64,000 bases of DNA from Spirosoma panaciterrae DSM 21099. GTDB taxonomy: Bacteria; Bacteroidota; Bacteroidia; Cytophagales; Spirosomataceae. Position 1 is the first letter of the stretch, and every line of letters begins with the position of its first letter. The position numbers and the translations under genes are program-made. The notes below the pieces were generated by a model that saw only the letters and a list, made by a program, of their open reading frames with translations, was not told the DNA's origin and did no database searches. This document shows, piece by piece, positions 41,193-63,192 of the stretch. The stretch covers positions 1 to 64,000 of the forward strand of contig NZ_KB893175.1 of assembly GCF_000374025.1 (NCBI RefSeq). The letters run 5' to 3'.

Positions 41193-41250
41193 TTCTAAGC
41201 AGTTTCTAAGATCTGCTTAAGGGCATTCTAAGCAATGCGTGTGTTATTTG
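41193..41250 (+). promoter_or_regulatory. Four-unit TTCTAAG operator and -7-like element, TreZ-like gene
   Basis: Units begin at 41193 (TTCTAAG), 41204 (TTCTAAG), 41215 (GCTTAAG) and 41226 (TTCTAAG), an exact 11-bp pitch. After a 10-bp gap, GTTATTTG at 41243-41250 keeps the TTTG of the Bacteroidota -7 box. The distance to the ATG at 41445 is about 195 bp, implying a long leader. Same architecture as at 48479, 55489, 60025 and 61379. Confidence 0.7.
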
Positions 41251-41444
41251 TTTTGTTCGTAACTAACCAACATCGGATAGGGCAAGGCTCAAGCATACTC
41301 AATTTCTCATTCATATTGAGTCGTTTTCAACGCCATGAAGCCGGGTGTTCATGCGCCCGACCTGCTGATGGCTATGCCATGGTTAGGAAAATTTGCCAGT
41401 AGATGGTCGGATGGCTTCTCCGATATCTCGTAACATCTTTTTCT

Positions 41445-43202
41445 ATGAGTCATACGAAAGACTATCATCAACGATCGCTTGGCCTTACCTTCACCCCAGA
41501 TCATACAGCGCAGATAACTGTATGGGCGCCTTTTGCCCAGAAAGTGGCCGTCTCCATTCAAACGGGTTCGTCTGAACTACCTTTGCAAAAAGGAACGAAT
41601 GGGGACTGGCACGGAGAAACCGATCAGATCAAACCCGGTGATTTATATACGTTTGTCATCAACGACGAGCAGGAATGCGCTGACCCGGCATCACTTATAC
41701 AACCCCAGGGGTTCTATGGCCCTTCCCAGGCGTTTGATACATCTGCTTTTTATTGGGAAGATGCACACTGGGTCAATCCGCCCATCGACGACTACATCAT
41801 TTACGAACTTGATATATGCACCTTCACGCCAGAAGGTACACTTAAGGCGCTGATTCATAAACTGAGCCATCTCAAAAAATTGGGTGTTACGGCAATTCTG
41901 CTTAGGCCCATCACTCCGTTTCTGAATCCCCAATCCCAACAGCAGTCCGCTCCTTTTTTATATGCTGTTCAAACGTCATGTGGTGGACCGGCGCACCTGC
42001 AACAACTGGTAAATGCCTGCCATTTTGAAGGCATCGCCGTTATTCTGGATATGGTGTATCAACGGACAGAACAACCAGCAAAAGGATTTGGGAACTTTGG
42101 GTTGCTGGCCCGTTCGCAGGCCCGCACGCTTACCGATAAGCCTGACTTTTTTCGTGAAGCTCATGAGCGCTACCTTATCGAGAATATGATGATGTGGTTT
42201 CAGGAGTTTCATATCGACGCGATTCAGTTGAGGGATATTCAGACCTTGCCGGATGCCGATCAGCTACTTCATCGAATGCGGGAGCGTACAAATGCTTTAA
42301 CTAACCTGACCGGACGGCAATATTATCTATTGGCTGAACACGACTTGCCCCAACCGATGTGTAGTAATGAAGATAAATCGAGTAGCGATCGGGTTAGAAA
42401 GCCAATTTCCTCCGGAAACAGGGCTGACTCAGCCCGTAATTCGTTTAACCAGGATATAATCGCTCGTCGGTGTCAAACCCGGCATTATCAGGAATCGTAT
42501 CTGTATGATGCGCATTTCTCGGAGGTACTTGACGAGTTGTTTGATCGAGAAGGGGCCGAGGGAGCCGGAGAAGGGGTGCTTTCACTATCGCAGACTTGTT
42601 ACAAAGCCCAAAACAATCTGCTGGAAACCTATACCACGCAGCCACTCAACACAGAATCCGTCAAGCTCATGGCGGGGTATATTCTAGTGAGTCCCTGTAT
42701 ACCTACGCTGTTTATGGGCGAAGAATGGGGGCACATGAATCCATTCCTGGCACTGACTCAGGATGAGCCTGTACGGATGGCTGAAAAATCGTTGCCTGTC
42801 GATCAGGAAATCCAGTCGGCTTCTGCTTCAGCCTGGGAGGGGCTGGATGAGCCCCCAAGCCCAACCTTGTATCGGTACTATCAGTCGCTTACGGCACTCC
42901 GGCGTCAGCAACCGGCATTGTATCATCTCAATCCCCGACACACCCGGATCATTCATCAGGAGGGAGAAACAACGCTTCTCATGCATCGGTGGCATAAGAC
43001 CAACGACGTATTGTGCCTGATGAATTTTTCCTCCGAAAAACAGATCGTGACACTGCCTGACCTGGGAGAAAGCTGGCAAAAGCTGCTCGACTCAGCCGAC
43101 CCCGTCTGGGAAGGGCCCGGCGCATCGCCCGAGCTTTTGGCCAGCAAAGCCACGCTGATTCTTCAGCCGGAGTCAATCGTCGTCTACAAAGCCCAAGCCT
43201 GA
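41445..43202 (+). CDS. TreZ-like GH13 protein lacking catalytic residues
   Basis: This 585-aa protein follows malto-oligosyltrehalose trehalohydrolase (TreZ). It has a CBM48-type domain (about 8-110; ITVWAPFAQKVAVSI, DPASLIQPQGFYGPSQAFD), a GH13 barrel (about 120-460) and a C-terminal beta domain. However, the signature sites are altered: region I DVVYNH is DMVYQR; the nucleophile segment DGLRLDAVH is DAIQLRDIQ, with Arg at the Asp position; and the QNHDQVGNR segment is not found, with SQTCYKAQNN in its place. Only the LLAEH Glu and the LFMGEEWG segment persist. It is therefore probably a non-catalytic binding or regulatory protein. No treY neighbour is seen. ATG at 41445 is chosen because family homology begins nearby. 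Confidence 0.75.
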   Translation: MSHTKDYHQRSLGLTFTPDHTAQITVWAPFAQKVAVSIQTGSSELPLQKGTNGDWHGETDQIKPGDLYTFVINDEQECADPASLIQPQGFYGPSQAFDTSAFYWEDAHWVNPPIDDYIIYELDICTFTPEGTLKALIHKLSHLKKLGVTAILLRPITPFLNPQSQQQSAPFLYAVQTSCGGPAHLQQLVNACHFEGIAVILDMVYQRTEQPAKGFGNFGLLARSQARTLTDKPDFFREAHERYLIENMMMWFQEFHIDAIQLRDIQTLPDADQLLHRMRERTNALTNLTGRQYYLLAEHDLPQPMCSNEDKSSSDRVRKPISSGNRADSARNSFNQDIIARRCQTRHYQESYLYDAHFSEVLDELFDREGAEGAGEGVLSLSQTCYKAQNNLLETYTTQPLNTESVKLMAGYILVSPCIPTLFMGEEWGHMNPFLALTQDEPVRMAEKSLPVDQEIQSASASAWEGLDEPPSPTLYRYYQSLTALRRQQPALYHLNPRHTRIIHQEGETTLLMHRWHKTNDVLCLMNFSSEKQIVTLPDLGESWQKLLDSADPVWEGPGASPELLASKATLILQPESIVVYKAQA

Positions 43203-44909: not shown

Positions 44910-47900
44910 TTAGAACGACCCTATCCCATCAACGGTCTCTGGCATGAGCTCTTTGGCCACAGTGCCAGTCTGTTCAATAATCGATTGAATGATTTCCAGG
45001 GGCACACGAACCCAGTCGGGTCGGTGGCTGAGTTCACTATTTAGGTCCGATATGGCTTTTTCGAGCAGGTACGTTTCCAGCATCATTTGCAGATCGTTGG
45101 CGTCATCGGGAATAAACGAACTGCCCCGAACGGTTTCCAGATAGGCTTCCATAAAAAAGTTGCTCATGCATTGGGCCCAGAATATAGCATAGGGTAAAAG
45201 GGGGATCGTGTCTTCGGCCGTGACCTGATTATTCTGTAAAAAGCCTTCGTACCCAACGTAATAGAACGAGCGAATCATAGACGCGACATCACGCAGAGGA
45301 GACCGTTTCAGACGACGTTCGCTGTAGCTCCGGCCAGGGTCGCCCCCAAAATCCTGAATGGCAATATCTTTGCCCGTCAGCAGAATCTTGTCCAACTGCA
45401 GGTCCCCGTGAATGCGAATCTTGGTGCTGACCAGTTTTTTACTGTAAATCCGTTTAAACAGGGCTAATACTTCCTCTTTTCGACCCAGTATCTGTTCAAC
45501 ATCCTGCCGAACATTGTCGGGCAGGCGTTGCAAATTTCGTTTTTGGGTCTGGTAACTTTCGCGAACCAGCGATTGAAAACCGGCATACAACGACCGCTGA
45601 TAGTGCAGGGAAAATTCTTCAGGGGCAAAGTCTGTCAGTGTCGTGTTCGACGCCAGTGCCTGGTGCATCGCCCCGATTCGTTCGCCTAGTAGCCGAACCT
45701 GCTGAGCGGCCCGGTGGCCAAGTAACTCCTGTGCTTCGGGGGGTAAGCTCGTGAACGAAACCGGCTGACTCAGGGTGCCCAGCGTTGCATTCAGGGCCTC
45801 GGCCAATTGCATTGAATTGCGGGCCAGAATCCGTTCAATAAAGTTGTTGATGCGTTCCAGAACATACTGTTTCCCATCGCCATGTTGCGCTACAAGTTTC
45901 TGCATAACGGCCAGCATGATCGGCTCGCCCGAAGCCAGCATTTCGATCATTCCGGCAAACGGAGGGACGTTCGAAAAGTCTGCCTGCTCAGACAGGAACT
46001 GAGTCATTTCGGCATCTGGATTGATCGTTAAATCAACCTTTCGATACACTTTCAATACGTAACAGTGATCGTAAATGATAGAGGCATAGGCAGGGCCCGA
46101 AGCCACCAGTTTCGACTTTATAGCACTGTGCTGACGGACGTAGTCCATCAATAACGGTTTAGATTGCAGAACAAGGTTGCCTTCAGCATGTCGGTCATTC
46201 TGTGTTAGTTTCTGAAGCAGAGCCTGCTGTACATCGGGGAGGTAAAGACCATCGCAGAGTACCCCCGATTCGTGCCCCAGATGCAGATTGGCCAGTACCG
46301 CCTGAGGGCAGCTATGTAATAACAGAGCGGCCTGTAGCTCGTCGGCAAAGGCAATAACCAACTGGAAAATTTCGGGCAGGCCCCGCTCATACGTAACTTC
46401 AACCAAAAGAATGTAGGCCGAACCCACTGGCAGCATAAGCGGTGCCTGGTTCAGAATAGAAACGCCCCGCATGGTTACCCGCTTTTCTTCGAACCAGTCG
46501 GTCCTGAGCAGGTAATCGGGCAAGACTTTCGTTTCCAGGCGTTCCCGGGTGTTGTTGCTCAAAATCTGTCCCCACAGGGCAATATGCAGTTCAGGAAGCT
46601 GGAGGGGAGCCGCCACACGCGCAGCTGTTTTTTCCAGCACAAACCACTGGTAGTCGTGAGGGGCCAGCGTGAAGAAATACGTTTCCTGTTCCGTAACAGC
46701 CGGAAACGTATTTCGGCTGAATAACTCAACCGGAACATACCCGCCAAACCCATCCAGTTCAATTTCGGCAGGTTGAGCATATTTCGACAGGTTAATGATG
46801 ATCAGCAGCGTCTGGTCTTCGTAGGTGCGGGTAAACGCCAGCACTTTTGGATTTTCGACGTTCAGAAAGGTCAGATCTCCTCGCCCAAAAGCCTTGTATT
46901 TCTTCCGTAGGGTCATCATCCGTTTCATGAACCAAAACAGCGAGGAGGTGTTCTGACGCTGCGTTTCGACGTTGACGGATTCATAATGGTACTCCGAATC
47001 AAGAATGGTAGGCAGATATAGCTTATGAGGATTGGCGGCCGAGAATCCGGCATTTCGGTCGGGCGACCATTGCATGGGCGTTCGTACGCCATCGCGGTCG
47101 CCCAGATACACATTATCGCCCATGCCGATTTCATCGCCGTAATACAGAACCGGTGTGCCCGGCAACGAAAAAAGCAGCGAGTTCATCAACTCTATTTTTT
47201 TTCGGTTGTTGCTCAGCAGCGGAGCCAAACGATGGCGTAGACCCAGATTGATGCGGGATCGGGGGTCTTTGATGTACGTCTTGTACATATAGTCCCGCTC
47301 CTCGTCGGTCACCATTTCGAGGGTTAGCTCGTCATGATTGCGGAGAAAGATAGCCCACTGGCAGTTTTCGGGGATGGCGGGGGTTTGATCAAAAATATCG
47401 GTGATGGGATAGCGGTCTTCCATTTGTAACGCCATAAACAACCGGGGCATGACCGGAAAATGGTAGTTCATATGGCACTCATCGCCATCACCAAAATACG
47501 ATGCGGCTTCTTCGGGCCACATATTGGCTTCGGCCAGAAAGACCACTCCCGGAAAATGATCATCGACGTGTTGCCGCAGTTGTTTTAGAAACGCGTGGGT
47601 TTCGGGCAGGTTTTCGCCGTTGGTACCCTCCCGCTCGTACAGGTAAGGGACAGCATCGAGCCGGAAACCATCCACACCCATGTCGCACCAATAGTCGATT
47701 ATTTTGAATATCTCGCTCTGCACGAGTGGGTTATCGTAGTTCAGGTCGGGCTGATGATGGAAAAAGCGATGCCAGTAATATGCCTGCGCTTCATGATCCC
47801 AGGTCCAGTTCGAATGTTCAAAGTCCTGGAAAATAATGCGAACATCTTTGTATTGAGTCGGGTCATCCGTCCAGACATAATAGTCGCGTTCGGGCGATCC

Positions 47901-48284
47901 CTTGGGGGCTTTTCGGGCGCGTTGAAACCAGGGATGCTGATCGGAGGTGTGATTGATGACCAGTTCGGTAATCACTTTCAGATTCCGCTGATGGGCTTCG
48001 TGAAGCAGCGTTTTAAACTGCTCGATGGTCCCATAGGCGGGGTTGATGGTGTAATAATCGGCTATATCGTACCCGTCATCGCGCAGGGGCGAAGGGTAGA
48101 ATGGCAAAAGCCAGATGGCCGTAACCCCCAGTTCCTGAAGGTAATCCAGCTTTTGGAGTAAGCCCTGAAAATCACCGATTCCGTCGCCATTGCCGTCGTA
48201 AAAGGCTTTGATATGCAATTCATAAATGATGGCATCCTTGTACCACTGAAGATTGTCCTGGAGATCTATGGTATTTTCTGTCAT
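44910..48284 (-). CDS. treS: Trehalose synthase fused to maltokinase (TreS-Mak)
   Basis: This 1124-aa fusion has an N-terminal GH13 trehalose synthase (about 10-555) that interconverts trehalose and maltose, with NHTSDQHPWF (region I), GFRLDAVPYL (nucleophile Asp about 207), FLAEANMW (acid Glu about 249) and FLRNHDELT (Asp about 317). It is joined to a maltokinase (about 590-1110) that makes maltose-1-phosphate for glycogen-type glucans. In the kinase part IHGDLQLDKILL and IQDFGGDPGRSYSERRLKRSPLRDVASM are seen; the usual DFEGEP is DFGGDP here. The TreS half is complete. It is the first gene of a two-gene operon with trehalase and is divergent from the OtsA-OtsB gene, each side with its own operator. 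Confidence 0.93.
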   Translation of the reverse strand: MTENTIDLQDNLQWYKDAIIYELHIKAFYDGNGDGIGDFQGLLQKLDYLQELGVTAIWLLPFYPSPLRDDGYDIADYYTINPAYGTIEQFKTLLHEAHQRNLKVITELVINHTSDQHPWFQRARKAPKGSPERDYYVWTDDPTQYKDVRIIFQDFEHSNWTWDHEAQAYYWHRFFHHQPDLNYDNPLVQSEIFKIIDYWCDMGVDGFRLDAVPYLYEREGTNGENLPETHAFLKQLRQHVDDHFPGVVFLAEANMWPEEAASYFGDGDECHMNYHFPVMPRLFMALQMEDRYPITDIFDQTPAIPENCQWAIFLRNHDELTLEMVTDEERDYMYKTYIKDPRSRINLGLRHRLAPLLSNNRKKIELMNSLLFSLPGTPVLYYGDEIGMGDNVYLGDRDGVRTPMQWSPDRNAGFSAANPHKLYLPTILDSEYHYESVNVETQRQNTSSLFWFMKRMMTLRKKYKAFGRGDLTFLNVENPKVLAFTRTYEDQTLLIIINLSKYAQPAEIELDGFGGYVPVELFSRNTFPAVTEQETYFFTLAPHDYQWFVLEKTAARVAAPLQLPELHIALWGQILSNNTRERLETKVLPDYLLRTDWFEEKRVTMRGVSILNQAPLMLPVGSAYILLVEVTYERGLPEIFQLVIAFADELQAALLLHSCPQAVLANLHLGHESGVLCDGLYLPDVQQALLQKLTQNDRHAEGNLVLQSKPLLMDYVRQHSAIKSKLVASGPAYASIIYDHCYVLKVYRKVDLTINPDAEMTQFLSEQADFSNVPPFAGMIEMLASGEPIMLAVMQKLVAQHGDGKQYVLERINNFIERILARNSMQLAEALNATLGTLSQPVSFTSLPPEAQELLGHRAAQQVRLLGERIGAMHQALASNTTLTDFAPEEFSLHYQRSLYAGFQSLVRESYQTQKRNLQRLPDNVRQDVEQILGRKEEVLALFKRIYSKKLVSTKIRIHGDLQLDKILLTGKDIAIQDFGGDPGRSYSERRLKRSPLRDVASMIRSFYYVGYEGFLQNNQVTAEDTIPLLPYAIFWAQCMSNFFMEAYLETVRGSSFIPDDANDLQMMLETYLLEKAISDLNSELSHRPDWVRVPLEIIQSIIEQTGTVAKELMPETVDGIGSF

Positions 48285-48369: not shown

Positions 48370-48427
48370 GCAACTACTCGATTTGAGCTAAGAATCTGCT
48401 TATAGACCGCTTAGAAATTACTTAGAA
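48370..48427 (-). promoter_or_regulatory. Four-unit TTCTAAG operator for the TreS-trehalase operon
   Basis: Read on the minus strand, units are TTCTAAG (48427-48421), TTCTAAG (48416-48410), CTATAAG (48405-48399) and TTCTTAG (48394-48388), all 11 bp apart. The last is followed after about 11 bp by TAGTTGCC, a weak -7 match. The operator ends about 100 bp before the TreS ATG at 48284. It lies back to back with the plus-strand operator at 48479. Confidence 0.68.
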
Positions 48428-48478: not shown

Positions 48479-48536
48479 CTCTAAGAAGTTTCTAAGATTT
48501 ACTTAAGTTGGCTCTAAGCCCAATTGGCGTCTTTTG
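48479..48536 (+). promoter_or_regulatory. Four-unit TTCTAAG operator for the OtsA-OtsB gene
   Basis: Units start at 48479 (CTCTAAG), 48490 (TTCTAAG), 48501 (ACTTAAG) and 48512 (CTCTAAG), an exact 11-bp pitch. Ten bp after the last, GTCTTTTG at 48529-48536 preserves TTTG. The ATG is at 48575, 39 bp after this element. The pattern of a third unit nCTTAAG is shared with 41215 and 61401. Confidence 0.72.
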
Positions 48537-51470: not shown

Positions 51471-52049
51471 AATCGTGTTTATGGGAAGGAGAGGCCGCAT
51501 CTGCAAACCAACCATCCGCCTTTTTGAGATACGAGTAACGTTCGGTTACTGCCTTAGTGTCTGTCAAATTTCTGGTCAGGAAATCGTTGAGCATGTCCGC
51601 GACATAAACCCTTATGGGTACCCAACCCGGCTAAAAACAAACTAGTCCGGAGCGACCTATGTAGTTTTACTTAGCCGTTTGAATATAAGTAGATTATTAG
51701 AAATGCATCAGGTTAATTTTTGTCCTGCGTCAGCAGGACAAAAAGGCCAGTTTGAGATACGCTAAACGAGTTGTGCTTCTGTACCTGGTGTAATTTAAGT
51801 TGTCGGTCATTCCAACCCGCGACAAAAGTAATGGATGGGCAACCTACTGATTTTATACATTTTACGGTTTTACTTACCACTTTTACGGATGCGGGTTTGA
51901 GTCACTGTTTTCGCCGTTAGATTTGGCTGAAAGATCAGACGATGACTGGACTAGTTTACCTGAAAAAGTACAGGACTCTAGGGAAAGTACCCACTGATTT
52001 GGCCAGAATTTGCTACATAAACCCTTCAATACAGAAACGACCAAAAACC
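51471..52049. other. Intergenic region with a perfect palindrome
   Basis: This 580-bp stretch has no convincing gene. At 51717-51744 a perfect inverted repeat has arms TTTTTGTCCTG and CAGGACAAAAA around a 6-nt loop. The rest looks like divergent promoter sequence of the acetyltransferase gene and the esterase pseudogene. A frame from 51942 into the esterase is an unneeded N-terminal extension. Confidence 0.45.
51717..51744. repeat. 28-bp perfect inverted repeat (possible operator)
   Basis: Two 11-nt arms are fully complementary with a 6-nt spacer (CGTCAG). T-runs are outside left and A-runs outside right, so it is not an intrinsic terminator. The size and symmetry fit the site of a dimeric helix-turn-helix repressor, or a small structured element. 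No repressor gene is next to it. Confidence 0.5.
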
Positions 52050-52824
52050 ATGATTACAACGAACAGACGGCATTTTTTGACTAGTTTATCGTTGGCAACT
52101 GCAGCCGTATACACGTCGCCCTACGCTTTTTCGGGGACTGGGAAAGCCGATGAGTACGTTCAGGTTGAGACGTCGTATGGGCGAATTCGCGGTATCCGCA
52201 AAGAAGGAGTCAATACGTTCAAAGGCATTCCCTACGGAGGAAAGGTATCTGGCGACTGGCGGTTTCGTAGGGCGGCCCCGGTAAATCCCTGGACGGGTGT
52301 TCGCGATGCACTGGAGGTTGGTGCTCCGGCCATCCAGCCCCCCCGTCGGAATGAGCCTGCTCCAGCCGAAGACTATTTATTCCTGAATGTCTGGACGCCC
52401 GCCAACAATCAGAAGAAACGGCCTGTCATGTTCTACAATCATGGCGGTGGGTTTGTCATTGGATCGGGGGCTTCGGCAAGCCAGGATGGCTCTAATCTGG
52501 CCCGGAACTTCGACGTAGTCGTAGTCGAAACAAATCATCGGCTGGGTTTACTGGGGTTTCTGTATCTGGATGAACTTGCTGGGGCGACTATGCCGGATCG
52601 GGCAATATGGGGAAGCTGGATATGGTGTCACGGCCTCCCGTCACTTTGCTGAACTCTGGACGACCTTCGCCCGAACGGGTAAGCCAGCGGCTAAAGACGT
52701 TCCCCAATGGCCAGCCTACAACCTCAAAACCCGCCCAACGATGCGCATTGATACTACCTGTCAGGTGATCGACAATCGATTTAGCCGGGAACTGGCTATG
52801 TGGCGTTCCATTGGCAGGATGTAG
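52050..52824 (+). pseudogene. Carboxylesterase type B, internally deleted
   Basis: The ATG at 52050 opens a Tat-like leader (TTNRRHFLTSLSLATAAVYTS) and the N-terminal part of a type B carboxylesterase: VETSYGRIRGI, FKGIPYGG, EDYLFLNVWTP, PVMFYNHGGGFVIGSG (oxyanion hole) and RLGLLGFLYLDEL. After about 190 codons the sequence jumps: in another frame (52570-52824) the C-terminal end of the same family appears (HFAELWTTFARTGKPAAKDVPQWPAYNLKTRPTMRID). The middle with the GxSxG nucleophile, catalytic Glu and His is missing, about 250-300 codons. An internal deletion with frame change is the simplest explanation; enzyme activity is not possible. Confidence 0.8.
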
Positions 52825-52947: not shown

Positions 52948-53142
52948 CTAATTGATCTCATCGATTGGCGTTTTGTAGTCTTTCTGACGCTGAGAAGACT
53001 TTCTAAGACGTTGGCGGAGATGGGAATAATGGGGAGGGAGCCTATCGAAACCCGAACTTTTCAGGCCATACCGAGCACTGGCTAAATAGCTTAAGGCACC
53101 TATGGCCAATAGGGTTAGTGTTATAATCAAAGCTAGCAGCAT
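52948..53142 (-). CDS. Small single-pass membrane protein with basic tail
   Basis: This 64-aa frame starts with a strong membrane helix (MLLALIITLTLLAIGALSYLASA) and continues with a basic, polar tail (HLRQRLRKSSQRQKDYKTPIDEIN). No family is recognised. The reason to take it as real is its promoter region: on the same strand, 120-180 bp upstream, are units of the shared operator and a CTTTG-containing -7 candidate (53264-53320). The response regulator gene is divergent from it, so it could report to or be controlled by that system. Confidence 0.45.
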   Translation of the reverse strand: MLLALIITLTLLAIGALSYLASARYGLKSSGFDRLPPHYSHLRQRLRKSSQRQKDYKTPIDEIN

Positions 53143-53263
53143 CGGTCGGTTTCATCAAGGGAAGTACCAGAATCTACTCACAACATTGACCATACCCTGC
53201 CAGTAAGAAAACAGGGTATGGATCAATGCATTAGGAAAGCGCATGTTCACCGCTTTGCCCCAG

Positions 53264-53320
53264 CAAAGTGGAAAACAGGAATAAGGAAGTGCTTAAGCTG
53301 ACCTTAGAATTTGATTAGAA
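53264..53320 (-). promoter_or_regulatory. TTCTAAG-type operator between small membrane protein and response regulator
   Basis: On the minus strand the units are TTCTAAT (53320-53314), TTCTAAG (53309-53303), GCTTAAG (53298-53292) and a weak TCCTTAT (53287-53281), 11 bp apart. A CACTTTG sequence ending at 53264 lies near the -7 position. Orientation points to the small membrane protein at 52948-53142, but the site is also about 110 bp upstream of the response regulator ATG, so it could serve autoregulation. Confidence 0.55.
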
Positions 53321-53428: not shown

Positions 53429-54106
53429 ATGAAACTATTAGTAGTTGAGGACGAAGCCAAAACCTTGCAGGCCATTCAGCAGGGGCTGGAAGAAAGCCAG
53501 TTTGAAGTCGATATTGCCTACGATGGCTTAATCGCCAAGCGGTTGGCTCTGAAAAACAATTATGCTGCCATTATTACCGATCTGATTTTGCCGGGCCTTA
53601 ATGGGTATGAACTATGTCGTCAGCTTCGGGCCGAAGGGCTTACTACGCCCATCCTGATTCTGACGGCGCTGGGCGAAACGGACGATAAAGTTATGGGATT
53701 CGATGCCGGGGCCGATCAGTATCTGACCAAACCGTTTCAGTTTGCCGAGCTACTGGCGCGGGTACGGTCGCTGACCAAACGCGGTACGCAGGTAGCCATG
53801 ACCGCCCAGACGTTACGCTATGGCGGTATTGAAATGAATCTGGATGCCAAAACCGTGACGCGTGATGGCAAACCAATTGATCTGACCGCCCGAGAGTTTG
53901 CGCTGCTGGAGTTCCTGATGCGTAACCAGGGGAGGGTACTTTCCAAGCCAGCCATTGCCGAACACGTCTGGGATTTGAATTTCGATACGGGCACCAATGT
54001 AGTAGAGGTTTACATCAACTACCTCCGTAAAAAGATCGACAAAGACTTTCCTAAAAAGTTGATCCACACCCAGTTTGGCATGGGCTATATGTTTAAGGAA
54101 GAATGA
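53429..54106 (+). CDS. OmpR-family response regulator
   Basis: This 225-aa two-component regulator has an N-terminal receiver domain (about 1-115; acidic pair at VVEDEA, phospho-acceptor Asp in IITDLILPG at about 51, LTALGE and the Lys in YLTKPFQF at about 101) and a C-terminal winged helix (about 128-222; LTAREFALLEFLMRNQGRVLSKPAI, TNVVEVYINYLRKKID, GMGYMF). OmpR/PhoB-type winged helices bind 7-bp half-sites at 11-bp pitch, the geometry of the operators in this region, so it is the leading candidate regulator. ATG at 53429 is chosen; the frame opens at a TTG at 53411. It precedes its kinase by 9 bp. Confidence 0.93.
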   Translation: MKLLVVEDEAKTLQAIQQGLEESQFEVDIAYDGLIAKRLALKNNYAAIITDLILPGLNGYELCRQLRAEGLTTPILILTALGETDDKVMGFDAGADQYLTKPFQFAELLARVRSLTKRGTQVAMTAQTLRYGGIEMNLDAKTVTRDGKPIDLTAREFALLEFLMRNQGRVLSKPAIAEHVWDLNFDTGTNVVEVYINYLRKKIDKDFPKKLIHTQFGMGYMFKEE

Positions 54107-54115
54107 ACAGGCTCT

Positions 54116-55480
54116 ATGACCATTCGCAACCGCTTAACAATACGCTTCACCGGACTGGTTTCCAGTATTCTACTACTGGCCTTTGTGAGCATCTACGCCT
54201 TTTGCTGGTATTTTATTTCGTCGGATTTCTACCGACGTCTCGACCGGAAGGCCAATACCATTGGGGATATGCTCATCCGTCACCGATTGAATACGGACTT
54301 GATTCAGCAATTGACCCGCATCCGGAAAGACCAGCTACCGAACCAGAAAATCATTGCGTTTGATCAGCGGGATTCCATTATTTTATCGACCAATGAATCA
54401 ATCACACTAACCCTTCCCCAATCGGTACTGAGCAATATTCGCCAAACCCGGGAAAAGGAATTCCGCCAGGACAAGTATTATGTGGTAGGGGCCCGGTTTA
54501 TGACGGCTTCCGGGCAATTTGTCGTAATTGCCAGTGCCGAGAATAAGTACGGCGACGAATTCCTGCGTCGGCTGTTCTGGTCCTTAACGGGGCTTTTCTG
54601 CCTGATTGTAGCGATTACGGCGTTTTCGGGCTGGTTTTTTGCCAACGATGCTCTTCGCCCGGTGCAGGCCATGGACCGGACGCTGAATGCCATTTTTCCT
54701 AAAAACCGCGATGAACGTTTGCCGTTATACCATGACAATGACGAGATCAGCCGTTTGTCGCAAACCATCAACCAACTGCTCGACCGGGTCAATGAGTCAT
54801 TTCGTTTGCAACGGATGTTTGTGGCCAACGTATCGCACGAACTTAAAAATCCGCTTACCCTGATCAGTTCTCAGCTTGAAGTGAGCTTGCTGAATGAGCG
54901 AGGCCCCGAAGCGTATCGACAGACCATTCGTTCGGTTTTGCAAGACGTGACCGAACTGGCTAGTTTAACCCACGAACTACTCCGGCTCTCCCAACTCAAC
55001 CAAAACGATGCCGTTAGCCTGCTCACCGATCAGGTACGAATCGATGAAATTGTTTGGGATGTTCGTGCTCAGGTAAATGCCATCAATCCACACTACAAGG
55101 TGACCGTGCAGCTCGGAACCTTACCCGAAGAACCCGATCAATTATCGGTTCAGGGAAACAAAACTCTGCTGGAAACGGCTCTGAAAAATCTGACCGAAAA
55201 TGCCTGTAAATTTTCGGACGACGGAAAAGCACGGGTAGAGGTCGACTTTCAGGAAGCTGTGGTTACGATTCGTATTCAAAACCAGGGGAATCCCATCCCA
55301 ACGGCCGATCTGCCCTATATTTTTGAACCGTTTTACCGTAGTCGTAAAACCGCCGAGGTACGCGGCTACGGGATTGGCCTGTCGCTCGTCGAACGCATCG
55401 TTCGCTTACACCGGGGGCGTGTGCAGGTAAGTTCATCAGTTGGTCAGCCAACCGTGTTTAGTATTATGCTTCCCCGTTAG
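54116..55480 (+). CDS. Membrane sensor histidine kinase (partner of 53429)
   Basis: This 454-aa inner-membrane kinase has TM1 (about 12-32), a periplasmic domain of about 115 residues, TM2 (about 152-175), HAMP (about 176-230; DALRPVQAMDRTLNAI), HisKA with VSHELKNPLTLI (His about 241), and HATPase with LTENACKF (N box), EPFYRS and GYGIGLSLVERIV. The SHELKNPL and YGIGLSL types are as in CusS/ArlS-like kinases that pair with OmpR regulators. It begins 9 bp after the regulator's stop and ends just before another copy of the operator (55489). The signal is not evident; trehalose and ion-transport neighbours suggest osmotic or envelope stress. Confidence 0.92.
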   Translation: MTIRNRLTIRFTGLVSSILLLAFVSIYAFCWYFISSDFYRRLDRKANTIGDMLIRHRLNTDLIQQLTRIRKDQLPNQKIIAFDQRDSIILSTNESITLTLPQSVLSNIRQTREKEFRQDKYYVVGARFMTASGQFVVIASAENKYGDEFLRRLFWSLTGLFCLIVAITAFSGWFFANDALRPVQAMDRTLNAIFPKNRDERLPLYHDNDEISRLSQTINQLLDRVNESFRLQRMFVANVSHELKNPLTLISSQLEVSLLNERGPEAYRQTIRSVLQDVTELASLTHELLRLSQLNQNDAVSLLTDQVRIDEIVWDVRAQVNAINPHYKVTVQLGTLPEEPDQLSVQGNKTLLETALKNLTENACKFSDDGKARVEVDFQEAVVTIRIQNQGNPIPTADLPYIFEPFYRSRKTAEVRGYGIGLSLVERIVRLHRGRVQVSSSVGQPTVFSIMLPR

Positions 55481-55488
55481 CAGTTGGC

Positions 55489-55546
55489 TTCTAAGGATAT
55501 TCTAAGGAGTTTATCAGCGGATATTAATTCGCTGAAAGCAGTTTTG
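55489..55546 (+). promoter_or_regulatory. TTCTAAG operator and -7 element before small membrane protein
   Basis: Units start at 55489 (TTCTAAG), 55500 (TTCTAAG), 55511 (TTATCAG, degenerate) and 55522 (TATTAAT, degenerate), with 11-bp pitch. Ten bp later CAGTTTTG at 55539-55546 matches the Bacteroidota -7 consensus except its first base, and the identical octamer stands at 60075-60082 in the same phase. The ATG is at 55589, 42 bp further. Confidence 0.7.
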
Positions 55547-55588: not shown

Positions 55589-55783
55589 ATGATCCATTCA
55601 GCGTATCCCTATACTCCGTTTTTTCCGCCCGGACCTGCTACCCGTAAACGACCAACGCCAAACCCATTGTATGATGATGATCAGCCTCCACAGCCCGACT
55701 GGCTGCTTATTTTGATGTGCGCTCTCTTTCTGCTTACGCTTTTTCTGGCGTGGTACGTAGATATTCCCCGTCTGTTACACTGA
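55589..55783 (+). CDS. Small proline-rich membrane protein
   Basis: This 64-aa protein has a Pro-rich, charged N-terminal part (PYTPFFPPGPATRKRPTPNPLYDDDQPPQPD) and one C-terminal membrane helix (WLLILMCALFLLTLFLAWYV). I recognise no family. It has its own operator and -7 element upstream and directly follows the sensor kinase gene, which supports its reality. Together with the protein at 52948 it flanks the two-component pair, a pattern seen for small membrane modulators of kinases, but this role is inference. Confidence 0.6.
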   Translation: MIHSAYPYTPFFPPGPATRKRPTPNPLYDDDQPPQPDWLLILMCALFLLTLFLAWYVDIPRLLH

Positions 55784-60024: not shown

Positions 60025-60082
60025 GTCTAAGCAAATTCTAATATCTCTTTAAGGCATCTGTAACGACTATAGTCCAGTTTTG
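60025..60082 (+). promoter_or_regulatory. TTCTAAG operator and -7 element before coiled-coil/HMA operon
   Basis: Units start at 60025 (GTCTAAG), 60036 (TTCTAAT), 60047 (CTTTAAG) and 60058 (CTGTAAC, weak), an 11-bp pitch. Ten bp after unit four, CAGTTTTG at 60075-60082 is the -7 element, identical to that at 55539. The ATG at 60118 is 35 bp further. Confidence 0.68.
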
Positions 60083-60117: not shown

Positions 60118-61035
60118 ATGAAAGAAACTGGACGCACCTCAATCAATCTGGCCTGGACGTTGGCGCTGCTCATCGTTGTCGGGTTGGCCGGTGGTATTTA
60201 CTGGCGAAACAATCGGATGTGGACCAATCACTATAATCAGGTCGAATTACGGGCCGACTCGCTGCTATCGGTCAAATTTCACCTCGAAGATGATATACAT
60301 AATCTGGAAAGCCAACTGGCTACGGCTGCTGATGATAAGGTATACTTCGATAAGCGCCTGAATCAATTTTACGGCATGTTAAATGAACAGGATCGACAGG
60401 CAGACAAACTAAAACAGACAAAGCGTCGTCAGACAAGCACAATTCAACAGCTTCGGCATCAGGGAGATTCATTGGCTATAATTCGTGATAGTCTGGAAAG
60501 CCAACTGGAAGCATCGAGAGATAAGATAAACTGGCTGACCGATGCCAATGCGCTTCTCCTTGGTCAGAATAAGGAGCTGGAACAACGGCTACGTTCGTTG
60601 AATACCGATCTGGCGGTTACGATACCCCGCGCTAGTCTCACGGGGAATGCTTTTCTGGTCGAACCGCTTAAAAGCAACAAAAAAGTAACGGCCAAAGCGA
60701 CAAAAATTCGTAGCCTGCTTGTATCCTGTACGGTTCCTGCTGAGCTTCAACTGGAGGGTCGTCAGGAGGTATTTTTAAGCCTGACCGATGCAAACCGCGA
60801 AGCTATGATTCCTGCCATTCGAACAACGACTATAGCCCTGCCCAATCTGAACGAAGTTATTCCTGTGCATGCGGCACAAATGGTATCCTTTACCCAATCA
60901 CCACAGCGAATTGTCTTTCGATTTACACCCCAAACAGCTTTACAATCAGGATTGTATCGGGCGTCGATCTACACGCGGGATGCTTTTCTGGGGACCGTTG
61001 AGTTCCGGCTGCGGGATAGTTTCTGGTTCTTTTAA
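60118..61035 (+). CDS. Membrane-anchored coiled-coil protein
   Basis: This 305-aa protein has one N-terminal membrane helix (LAWTLALLIVVGLAGGIYW) and then a long coiled coil (about 35-165; LEDDIHNLESQLATAADD, LKQTKRRQTSTIQQLRHQ, LESQLEASRDKINWL, LEQRLRSL). A beta-rich C-terminal domain (about 185-305) with segments such as IRSLLVSCTVPAEL and QRIVFRFTPQTALQSGLYR follows, probably in the periplasm. No exact family is recognised; similar tethers occur in Bacteroidota next to envelope genes. It is the first gene of an operon with the HMA-fold protein and follows a shared-type operator. Confidence 0.7.
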   Translation: MKETGRTSINLAWTLALLIVVGLAGGIYWRNNRMWTNHYNQVELRADSLLSVKFHLEDDIHNLESQLATAADDKVYFDKRLNQFYGMLNEQDRQADKLKQTKRRQTSTIQQLRHQGDSLAIIRDSLESQLEASRDKINWLTDANALLLGQNKELEQRLRSLNTDLAVTIPRASLTGNAFLVEPLKSNKKVTAKATKIRSLLVSCTVPAELQLEGRQEVFLSLTDANREAMIPAIRTTTIALPNLNEVIPVHAAQMVSFTQSPQRIVFRFTPQTALQSGLYRASIYTRDAFLGTVEFRLRDSFWFF

Positions 61036-61378: not shown

Positions 61379-61436
61379 TTCTAAGGCAATTCTAAGCAAT
61401 CCTTAAGCCCGTTCTTAATTGCCGATAGTAGTTTAG
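61379..61436 (+). promoter_or_regulatory. Four-unit TTCTAAG operator and -7-like element before TPR gene
   Basis: Units start at 61379 (TTCTAAG), 61390 (TTCTAAG), 61401 (CCTTAAG) and 61412 (TTCTTAA), with exact 11-bp pitch. After 10 bp, TAGTTTAG at 61429-61436 is a -7-like element (TAnnTTTG with one change). The ATG at 61489 is 52 bp later. An additional GCTTAAG at 61359 is out of phase. Confidence 0.72.
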
Positions 61437-61488
61437 TGAAGTAATCCAATGAGTGTGGATTGGCTTAATTCCTAAAACAACGACGATT

Positions 61489-63192
61489 ATGAAAACGCAT
61501 GTTCGAACGGCAATGGTTCTCGCTATGCTATCGGCTGCACCGGCAGGTTTGGCATTGGCCCAAACGGCAGGTCCTGATGCGAACACATTGCTCAATCTTG
61601 GCCGATTCGATGAGGCCAAACAGCTTCTTTTGAAGAATGTACAACAAAATCCATCCGCCCAAACCTATTTCGAAGCAGGCTATGGATATCTCCGAACAGG
61701 ACAGCCCGACTCAGCCAGAATCTGGTTTGAAAAAGGCATTCCGATGGATGAAAAGCGTGTGCCACTGAATCAGACCGGGTCTGCTTTAACGTATCTGGTC
61801 AAACAGGATACGGTGAACGCCAATCCGAAACTGGATGAGGTAATTAAGAAAAGCAAAGGTAAAAATGCAGAGATTCTGTACCGAATTGGAGAAGCATATA
61901 CGGGGTATCTGACACCGGGCAATGGTTCCATAAAACCCATTTACCCACGCATTGTCAATACGGCAAAGGCAATCGATTTCCTGAATCGAGCCACTGATCG
62001 CGATAAGAAAAATGCTTCTATTCAGCTTGCTCTGGGCGATGCTTACTACCAGAACCGGGATGCCGGAACGGCCGTATCACGCTACGAGAGCGCTATCGAA
62101 CTGGGAATGAATCCGTCGCGCGTATACCAGCGCATCGGCGACATCTATTGGCAGGGGCGCAATCTGAATCTGGCTGTAGAGAATTATAAAAAAGCCATTG
62201 AGGCCAATCCAAACTACGCTCCGGCCTACAACCAACTGGCCGAACTCTATTTTCTGGTCAACCGATATAAGGAAGCGGCCAGCTATATCGATCAGTACGA
62301 GAACGTATCGAAAGACAAACGGCAGGAAACATTGCTCCGGCAGGCTCAGTTTCATTTTCTGGCGAAAGACTATCAGCGGGCTATCAGTCTGATTGATAGT
62401 AACCGAACGGCGCTGGGTCAGAATCCTATTGTGTACCGGATCGAGGGATGGGCTTATTCATCGCTGAAGCAGCCCCAGAAAGCCATCGAAAACCTTACTA
62501 CGTTCCTGGAAAAAGCTCCGGAAAAAATCATGCCCGACGATTACAAGTATCTGGGGCAGGCGTATCTGGCTACCGAACCGACGGACGACGATTCGGTAGG
62601 GGTGGTCTATCTGGAAAAAGCAGCCCCTGCCGATACCAGCGAAAATCTGTACAGCGACATTGCCCGCTATTATTACCGGACCAAAAAGCATCCCGAAGCG
62701 GTTGCTGCTCTCGATTCGGCTGCCAAACACGGCTTCAAAGCCGATGTTCAGGATTTGTTTCGCTACGGTATGAGTAACTACACGCTTGGCTTTCAGCGCG
62801 ATAGTTCAGGGAAACTGACGCGCGATACCGTCCGGTTCGCCCTGGCCGACTCGGCGCTGGCGCTGGCGCAACAAGGATCGCCTGATTATGCACCTACGAT
62901 CCTTTACCGCGCCAAAGCAAATTACTATGCCTACGAACCCGAAGACGCAGTACGGAATGGGAAAGCAAAGCCTTATTTTGAGCAGTTTATCACAATGGTA
63001 GCCGATAAACCTGAGGAGCGTACACGCTACAAAAATGATCTGGTGCTGGCCTTTAAGTACCTCATTTCTTACAATGAACTGGTTACCAAAGATGAAGCTG
63101 CCCGCAATGAATGGCTTCAGAAAGGACTGGACTGGTTCCCCGACAATAAAGATCTGGTCGCTATTTCTGCACCGCGACCCAGCTCCCAATAG
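61489..63192 (+). CDS. Exported TPR-repeat protein
   Basis: This 567-aa protein has a signal peptide (MKTHVRTAMVLAMLSAAPAGLALAQT) and is built of tetratricopeptide repeats from about 30 to 480 (for example NLAVENYKKAIEANPNYAPAYNQLAELYF and KAIENLTTFLEKAPEKIMPDDYKYLGQAYL). The last part (PYFEQFITMVADKPEERTRYKNDLVLAFKYLISYNELV) is also helical. TPR proteins act as scaffolds for protein complexes, here in the periplasm. ATG at 61489 is chosen as it starts the leader. It has a clear shared-type operator upstream and a terminator downstream, so it is monocistronic. Confidence 0.82.
   Translation: MKTHVRTAMVLAMLSAAPAGLALAQTAGPDANTLLNLGRFDEAKQLLLKNVQQNPSAQTYFEAGYGYLRTGQPDSARIWFEKGIPMDEKRVPLNQTGSALTYLVKQDTVNANPKLDEVIKKSKGKNAEILYRIGEAYTGYLTPGNGSIKPIYPRIVNTAKAIDFLNRATDRDKKNASIQLALGDAYYQNRDAGTAVSRYESAIELGMNPSRVYQRIGDIYWQGRNLNLAVENYKKAIEANPNYAPAYNQLAELYFLVNRYKEAASYIDQYENVSKDKRQETLLRQAQFHFLAKDYQRAISLIDSNRTALGQNPIVYRIEGWAYSSLKQPQKAIENLTTFLEKAPEKIMPDDYKYLGQAYLATEPTDDDSVGVVYLEKAAPADTSENLYSDIARYYYRTKKHPEAVAALDSAAKHGFKADVQDLFRYGMSNYTLGFQRDSSGKLTRDTVRFALADSALALAQQGSPDYAPTILYRAKANYYAYEPEDAVRNGKAKPYFEQFITMVADKPEERTRYKNDLVLAFKYLISYNELVTKDEAARNEWLQKGLDWFPDNKDLVAISAPRPSSQ

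Follow-up and report, generated by a model that had tools for sequence, protein, structure and literature searches.

The stretch of 64,000 nucleotides from Spirosoma panaciterrae DSM 21099 analysed here (the window) encodes a sensor kinase and a response regulator amid tandem copies of the heptamer TTCTAAG. We are fairly confident of one overall explanation, namely that the pair activates a regulon marked by TTCTAAG arrays.

The kinase-regulator pair and the arrays of the window

The domain search found Response_reg and Trans_reg_C in the regulator (91.8 and 89.2 bits, above the cut-offs) and HisKA and HATPase_c in the kinase behind it, confirming what an earlier note on this DNA had said of the pair and of the PhoB/OmpR winged helix. 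That note had also seen no other winged-helix regulator in the region, and the 53429 regulator is indeed the only PF00486-type protein on its contig, with 19 genome-wide. The top NCBIfam family of the regulator was TIGR01387 (CusR/CopR/CzcR) with a score of 240.4, below the curated cut-off of 279.2. The kinase was CusS/CzcS-like (185, also below its curated cut-off of 292.6), and the PmrA model NF007928 gave the regulator 163.2 bits where the curated cut-off is 330. A search of solved structures with the regulator returned nothing but other OmpR/PhoB-type regulators and no fresh lead. Named relatives of 82-99% identity came mostly from Spirosoma, Larkinella, Fibrella, Fibrisoma, Rudanella and Arsenicibacter. 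An orthologue of the kinase (58-100% identity) is present in all 14 regulator-positive genomes tested and in none of eight negatives, where the best match was 36-38%. In two Rudanella genomes the kinase gene is relocated away from the regulator, and an array still adjoins the kinase.

The exact motif TTCTAAG-N4-TTCTAAG occurs four times in the 8.13-Mb genome, and all four copies (41193, 48410, 55489 and 61379) lie in a stretch of about 20 kb within the window. When up to two mismatches were allowed, the genome count of 39 equalled that of the reversed control (40), so that only near-exact sites are informative; a regulon of many weak genome-wide sites was rejected on this ground. Strong half-site pairs in the window (scan threshold 12.7 of 14) were spaced at 11 bp (7 pairs) or 22 bp (3 pairs), and none at the other spacings from 7 to 30. 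On reading further into the flanks, four half-sites at an 11-bp pitch were seen in each of the arrays listed. The tandem of 7-bp half-sites 11 bp apart that the earlier note had described was thus right in its pitch, but the operator is larger, with four half-sites and a -7 box at a fixed distance. Its consensus is TTCTAAG-N4-TTCTAAG-N4-nyTTAAG-N4-nyTWAk, each half-site having 7 bp, and it ends about 10-11 bp ahead of a Bacteroidota-like -7 box, in sense orientation to the target gene.

A set of 131 arrays was drawn from the window, from 32 named loci and from 28 of 43 distal loci, the 43 being the listed distal places of the regulator-positive genomes minus those of G021 on C467. Since the 28 were picked by hand and several arrays lacking the third half-site were omitted, the proportion with a third half-site (124/131) is biased. 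Positions 0, 11, 22 and 33 were conserved in the 124 arrays, and AnnTT(T/G) stood at +51 in 60% and at +52 in 12% of this partly hand-picked set, with 0-3% at the other offsets from 41 to 74. The Bacteroidota -7 element is given as TAnnTTTG in excerpts of PMC9723704; its first T was weak in the arrays (29%). Among the unselected distal exact arrays of positive genomes, 35 of 52 had the third half-site, and the full architecture was present in 30 and absent in 22. From this geometry, an activator occupying the place of the -33 element is suggested.

Table 1. Features of the locus and of the array-bearing genes in the window
Feature	Coordinates	Strand	Basis
Operator array upstream of TreZ-like gene 41403-43202	41193..41232	+	
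Operator array upstream of TreS-maltokinase-like gene 44910-48284 (minus)	48388..48427	-	
Operator array upstream of OtsAB fusion gene (to 50809; likely start 48575)	48479..48518	+	
Second small membrane ORF TM2, 64 aa, divergent from regulator	52948..53142	-	tblastn homologues behind sense arrays in 5/5 loci
Putative -7 box CACTTTGC of divergent promoter	53263..53270	-	flank reading
Operator array between regulator and divergent small ORF (TM2), sense to TM2	53281..53320	-	near-match
OmpR/PhoB-type response regulator, 225 aa	53429..54106	+	Pfam domains, NCBIfam scores
Sensor histidine kinase, 454 aa	54116..55480	+	Pfam domains; orthologue comparison across genomes
Operator array, four half-sites, sense to small membrane-protein gene	55489..55528	+	exact tandem, flank reading
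Putative -7 promoter box CAGTTTTG, offset +50 to +57 from array start	55539..55546	+	-7 alignment over arrays
Unannotated 64-aa, apparently single-helix membrane protein (PDWLLIL...VDIPxLL family)	55589..55783	+	ORF, alignment, genome searches
Operator array upstream of ORF 60118-61035	60025..60064	+	
Operator array upstream of TPR protein gene 61453-63192	61379..61418	+	

Copies of the motif had been noted on both sides of the pair. The site after the kinase stop is exact and precedes the gene of the small membrane protein, which the earlier note does not mention; the upstream copy is a near-match on the minus strand that faces away from the regulator. This upstream array and its putative -7 box point toward the divergent TM2. 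Because a sense array stood before the regulator in one of the 32 named loci and antisense arrays alone in 11, direct autoregulation through the upstream array was rejected.

At the named loci, counted with an array definition that itself required a partial third half-site, sense arrays lay upstream of the small membrane protein in 29/31 cases, of OtsAB in 11/12, of the TPR protein in 8/11, of ORF 60118 in 8/10, of TM2 in 5/5, of TreS-maltokinase in 5/7 and of the TreZ-like gene in 3/4. DUF389 (0/9), CLC (0/7) and trehalase (0/2) genes of these loci had none and are not supported as targets; the Na+/H+ exchanger, with a sense array in 2/10 cases at 270 and 303 bp, is a doubtful one. The OtsAB fusion was recognised by its GT20 and trehalose phosphatase domains in Pfam. 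The enzyme names TreS (alpha-amylase, Malt_amylase_C and maltokinase cap) and TreZ (alpha-amylase, DUF3459 and CBM48) are likewise inferred from the Pfam domains. Just past the window end, at G000:C4:65604 (L204:1604), an array of four half-sites with altered bases (CTCTAAG and TTCTAAT first) precedes the gene of an HlyD/CusB-type efflux subunit. The carboxylesterase ORF 51942-52824 is short against its Pfam model (positions 4-150 of 515) and is perhaps a remnant.

Co-occurrence with the regulator, and the paralogues

In 200 genomes of the family, 47 had an orthologue of the regulator (82-100% identity) and 61 a relative of 62-73%, and the remaining 92 gave no match at E <= 1e-95; the orthologue threshold of E <= 1e-120 was set after the gap between 82% and 73% identity was apparent. 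The exact 11-bp tandem was present in 46/47 genomes with the orthologue versus 13/153 without it (Fisher p 4e-32, a statistic that ignores relatedness). By class, it was found in 46/47, 7/61 and 6/92, and the reversed control pattern gave 0, 6 and 10. The co-occurrence that the earlier note had expected was therefore observed. The contrary case, motif without regulator, was confined to the 13 genomes; TTCTAAG sites in the 153 negatives occurred at about the rate of the control (16 sites), and the full architecture was seen in 0/14 of the arrays taken from 12 of the 13 (G103 was left out). In G085, the sole exception among the positives, the array is present with one base changed.

For an rpoB tree, midpoint-rooted and with a few weak nodes, 30 genomes were chosen from three genera; on it the presence of the regulator changed at least six times (Fitch). 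In several comparisons of sister genomes the exact sites follow the regulator: G001 (regulator absent) has 0 and G019 (present) 3; G005 (absent) has 0, G000 and G004 (present) 4 and 5; G034 (absent) has 1 and G014 4; G109 (absent) has 0, G059 and G094 2 each; G064 and G110 (absent) have 0 each, G095 and G132 3 each. G003 and G020, which lack the regulator, have one site each, both ahead of efflux-protein genes. Altogether, 5/14 sites of the regulator-negative genomes lie before one protein cluster, of whose eight members three were tested and all were outer-membrane efflux proteins; these five sites are probably targets of a paralogue. Taken together, the comparisons suggest that the TTCTAAG regulon is very probably activated by the pair, with the regulator as the predicted binding protein, and that the pair very probably switches on trehalose genes and the gene of a tiny membrane protein through the four-repeat array, which comes and goes with the regulator in evolution.

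The best of the competing explanations, which we consider improbable, is that the TTCTAAG arrays are bound mainly by a CusR/CzcR-like paralogue encoded in the same genome and that the pair merely shares their neighbourhood. The recognition helix TNVVEVYINYLRKKID is near-identical in seven same-genome paralogues as well as in 33 orthologues and in 19 relatives of 62-73%, and this similarity speaks for the paralogue. Asn190 is kept in 33/33 orthologues, 19/19 relatives and 6/7 paralogues, and the 62-73% relatives differ from one another at positions 191, 192 and 196. Four paralogue loci (C15, C46, C1_312 and C67) have arrays of their own after the kinase or regulator gene, made of TTCTAAT or TTCTAAC; the -7 spacing is the same at C15, and the box lies 22 bp (two half-sites) further at C46 and C67. 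However, five regulator-negative genomes of the same genus (G001, G003, G005, G020 and G034) still encode such proteins, among the matches listed a 60-63% relative in at least four and a 55-58% relative in all five, and contain only 0, 1, 0, 1 and 1 exact sites. Moreover, TTCTAAT tandems occur in 119/200 genomes, many of them without the 53429-type regulator and with control hits there too, whereas the TTCTAAG tandems track the regulator.

Given the near-same helix and the TTCTAAT/C arrays of the paralogues, cross-binding by paralogues in the cell is likely. The earlier note's candidate master of the regulon has strong co-occurrence in its favour, but "master" is a loose word where paralogues share a near-identical helix and four have their own arrays. 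An obvious explanation of the seventh-position G versus T by the recognition helix was not supported, as orthologues and paralogues hardly differ there. At the loci of distant relatives, an array lay near the regulator-kinase pair in 15/19 cases, right after the kinase in 14; among 14 loci listed for the box, the -7 TTTG had the same offset in 12 and stood one half-site less away in two. In another genus, the five loci of 72-73% identical relatives likewise show an array directly behind the kinase gene, and the -7 spacing there is unchanged. From these loci and the TTCTAAT and TTCTAAC arrays of the paralogues, TTCTAAG looks like one clade's dialect of a family-wide operator.

Sites away from the regulator

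In the 29 regulator-positive genomes of the genus, 33/110 exact sites (17 genomes) were located more than 30 kb from any regulator copy or on another contig, which in fragmented assemblies may mean a short distance; 2.8 were expected from the site rate of the regulator-negative genomes. The tie between site and regulator is therefore more than linkage. No such site was found in 12 of the 29 genomes, and some of the 33, ahead of efflux genes, may belong to a paralogue. Some of the families found behind the distal arrays are known from the window, namely OtsAB, enzymes of the TreS/TreZ type, the small membrane protein and the TPR protein. DUF4136 and Usp proteins also stand behind such arrays, and others precede unrelated genes, efflux genes included.

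For OtsAB, the orthologues of positive genomes had the array in 13/16 copies, several of them unlinked; this count includes the array of G085, which scores 10 of 12 in the first pair and has good third and fourth half-sites. The three copies lacking it sit in G007 and G010, both with the regulator. G003, the single regulator-negative genome with an OtsAB orthologue among eight negatives searched, had no array there. The OtsAB paralogues of positive genomes had it in 0/11, where a match of 10 of 12 on the antisense strand of L302 was uncounted. In four genomes, a tandem TTCTAAG-GTTT-TTCTAAK with no third half-site was seen near ion-transporter genes (L147, L149, L162 and L203), with CitMHS near L147 and a Na+/H+ exchanger relative near L203; these fall outside the rules of the TTCTAAG regulon.

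Co-occurrence by itself cannot tell apart proteins that travel together, and an unrelated, unrecognised DNA-binding protein co-occurring with the locus could bind the arrays. We regard this as very unlikely, as direct repeats of 7 bp separated by 4-bp spacers have been documented as a target geometry for the OmpR/PhoB class in excerpts of PMC4832192 and PMC3973317, and the kinase gene retains its array when apart from the regulator. Unlikelier still is a repetitive or structural DNA element of no regulatory role: the exact sites do cluster in 20 kb of one genome, but the sense orientation, the fixed -7 distance, the same gene families at unlinked positions and the array-less DUF389 and CLC neighbours all speak against it.

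Activation by the pair may proceed as follows. As in its family, the kinase would sense an envelope signal and phosphorylate the regulator. The active regulator would then bind the four-half-site arrays, probably as two head-to-tail dimers, and, with the array occupying the -33 position, would recruit RNA polymerase to the -7 box 10-11 bp downstream. The predicted targets are OtsAB, TreS-maltokinase, the TreZ-like enzyme, the TPR protein, ORF 60118 and the two small membrane proteins. Some species would add an efflux subunit and proteins of the Usp and DUF4136 families. Since trehalose genes and stress proteins are among the targets, osmotic or drying stress is suggested as the signal.

The small membrane protein and comparison with known systems

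The 64-aa protein encoded behind the kinase has a variable proline-rich front, the motif PDWLLIL and one hydrophobic stretch ending in VDIPxLL, apparently a single membrane helix. No member of an alignment of 22 sequences matched Pfam or NCBIfam. The protein was found in 47/47 regulator-positive genomes (the match in G006 has an internal stop) and convincingly in 0/153 others, where G093 and G108 each gave a marginal, uncounted hit with stops inside (E about 5e-4); in 291 genomes of the order, all 13 hits were in regulator-positive genomes. Its gene lies between regulator and kinase in 7/8 Larkinella loci, still behind an array in the loci scanned. In G002, regulator and kinase are on one side and the small gene on a different contig, with an array alongside; a scan of locus flanks, from which those of L058 were left out, gave no array after the G002 kinase at its threshold. 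Short ORFs of one blastp cluster behind the arrays of L173, L183 and L186 look like TM2 by eye and are divergent from the moved kinase gene in Rudanella. At L178, L179 and L187, in three Larkinella-type genomes, 61-aa ORFs follow distal arrays, and at G157:C1:4504929 a weak hit to the small protein adjoins an exact array; the small gene may be duplicated together with its array.

Because regulator, kinase and small protein form a strict trio, we propose the latter as an accessory or feedback subunit of the kinase; a role as an effector in the stress response is just as conceivable. Going further, we can imagine, tentatively and with some doubt about the whole, that regulator, kinase and the 64-aa PDWL protein are an obligate three-part module of the six genera named above, in which the regulator drives the small protein and this sits with the kinase in the membrane and sets its activity, as a convergent Bacteroidota counterpart of MgrB, and that CusR-like regulators throughout the family share one type of operator, an array of several half-sites joined to a -7 box, each regulator having its own preference for the seventh base.

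The open-access PMC listings searched brought up no described regulator of trehalose synthesis and no such operator in these bacteria. If our explanation is right, regulator, operator and regulon are assigned for a whole clade, and the rule of TTCTAAN arrays with an 11-bp pitch, ending 10-11 bp before a -7 box, can be used to read the targets of orphan CusR-like systems in the family. An unannotated membrane microprotein would also be tied to one two-component system, making feedback control in Bacteroidota directly testable.

Among the known systems, PmrA/BasR of the Enterobacteriaceae is also of the OmpR/PhoB type, and BasR structures are among the solved relatives of the regulator (E about 2e-32). 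According to excerpts of PMC3973317, PmrA recognises the half-sites CTTAAT and CCTAAG, 11 bp apart and head to tail, which resemble the TCTAAG and CTTAAG found here. However, the PmrA box has two half-sites instead of four, the regulon is different, the score for the PmrA model is below its cut-off, and His193 and His195 of PmrA are Tyr and Asn in the 53429 regulator when aligned by eye. PhoP of M. tuberculosis, in excerpts of PMC4832192, binds 7-bp direct repeats with a strict 4-bp spacer as a tandem dimer; it shares the repeat geometry but differs in its half-site TCACAGC, in phylum and in targets. CusR/CopR/CzcR is the family with the best score, and the kinase is of the corresponding type, but the regulator scores below the curated cut-off and its predicted targets are mainly trehalose and stress genes; the gene of the HlyD-type efflux subunit at C4:65604 also has an array. 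The small protein, finally, may have a parallel in MgrB, the feedback peptide of PhoQ/PhoP, a very small inner-membrane protein whose gene belongs to the regulon of a two-component system (PMC2789325). By its size, its hydrophobic stretch and the array before its gene in 29/31 loci, the 64-aa protein would likewise be a tiny membrane protein in the regulon of its own system, with no sequence relation claimed; unlike mgrB, its gene adjoins its system in most loci.
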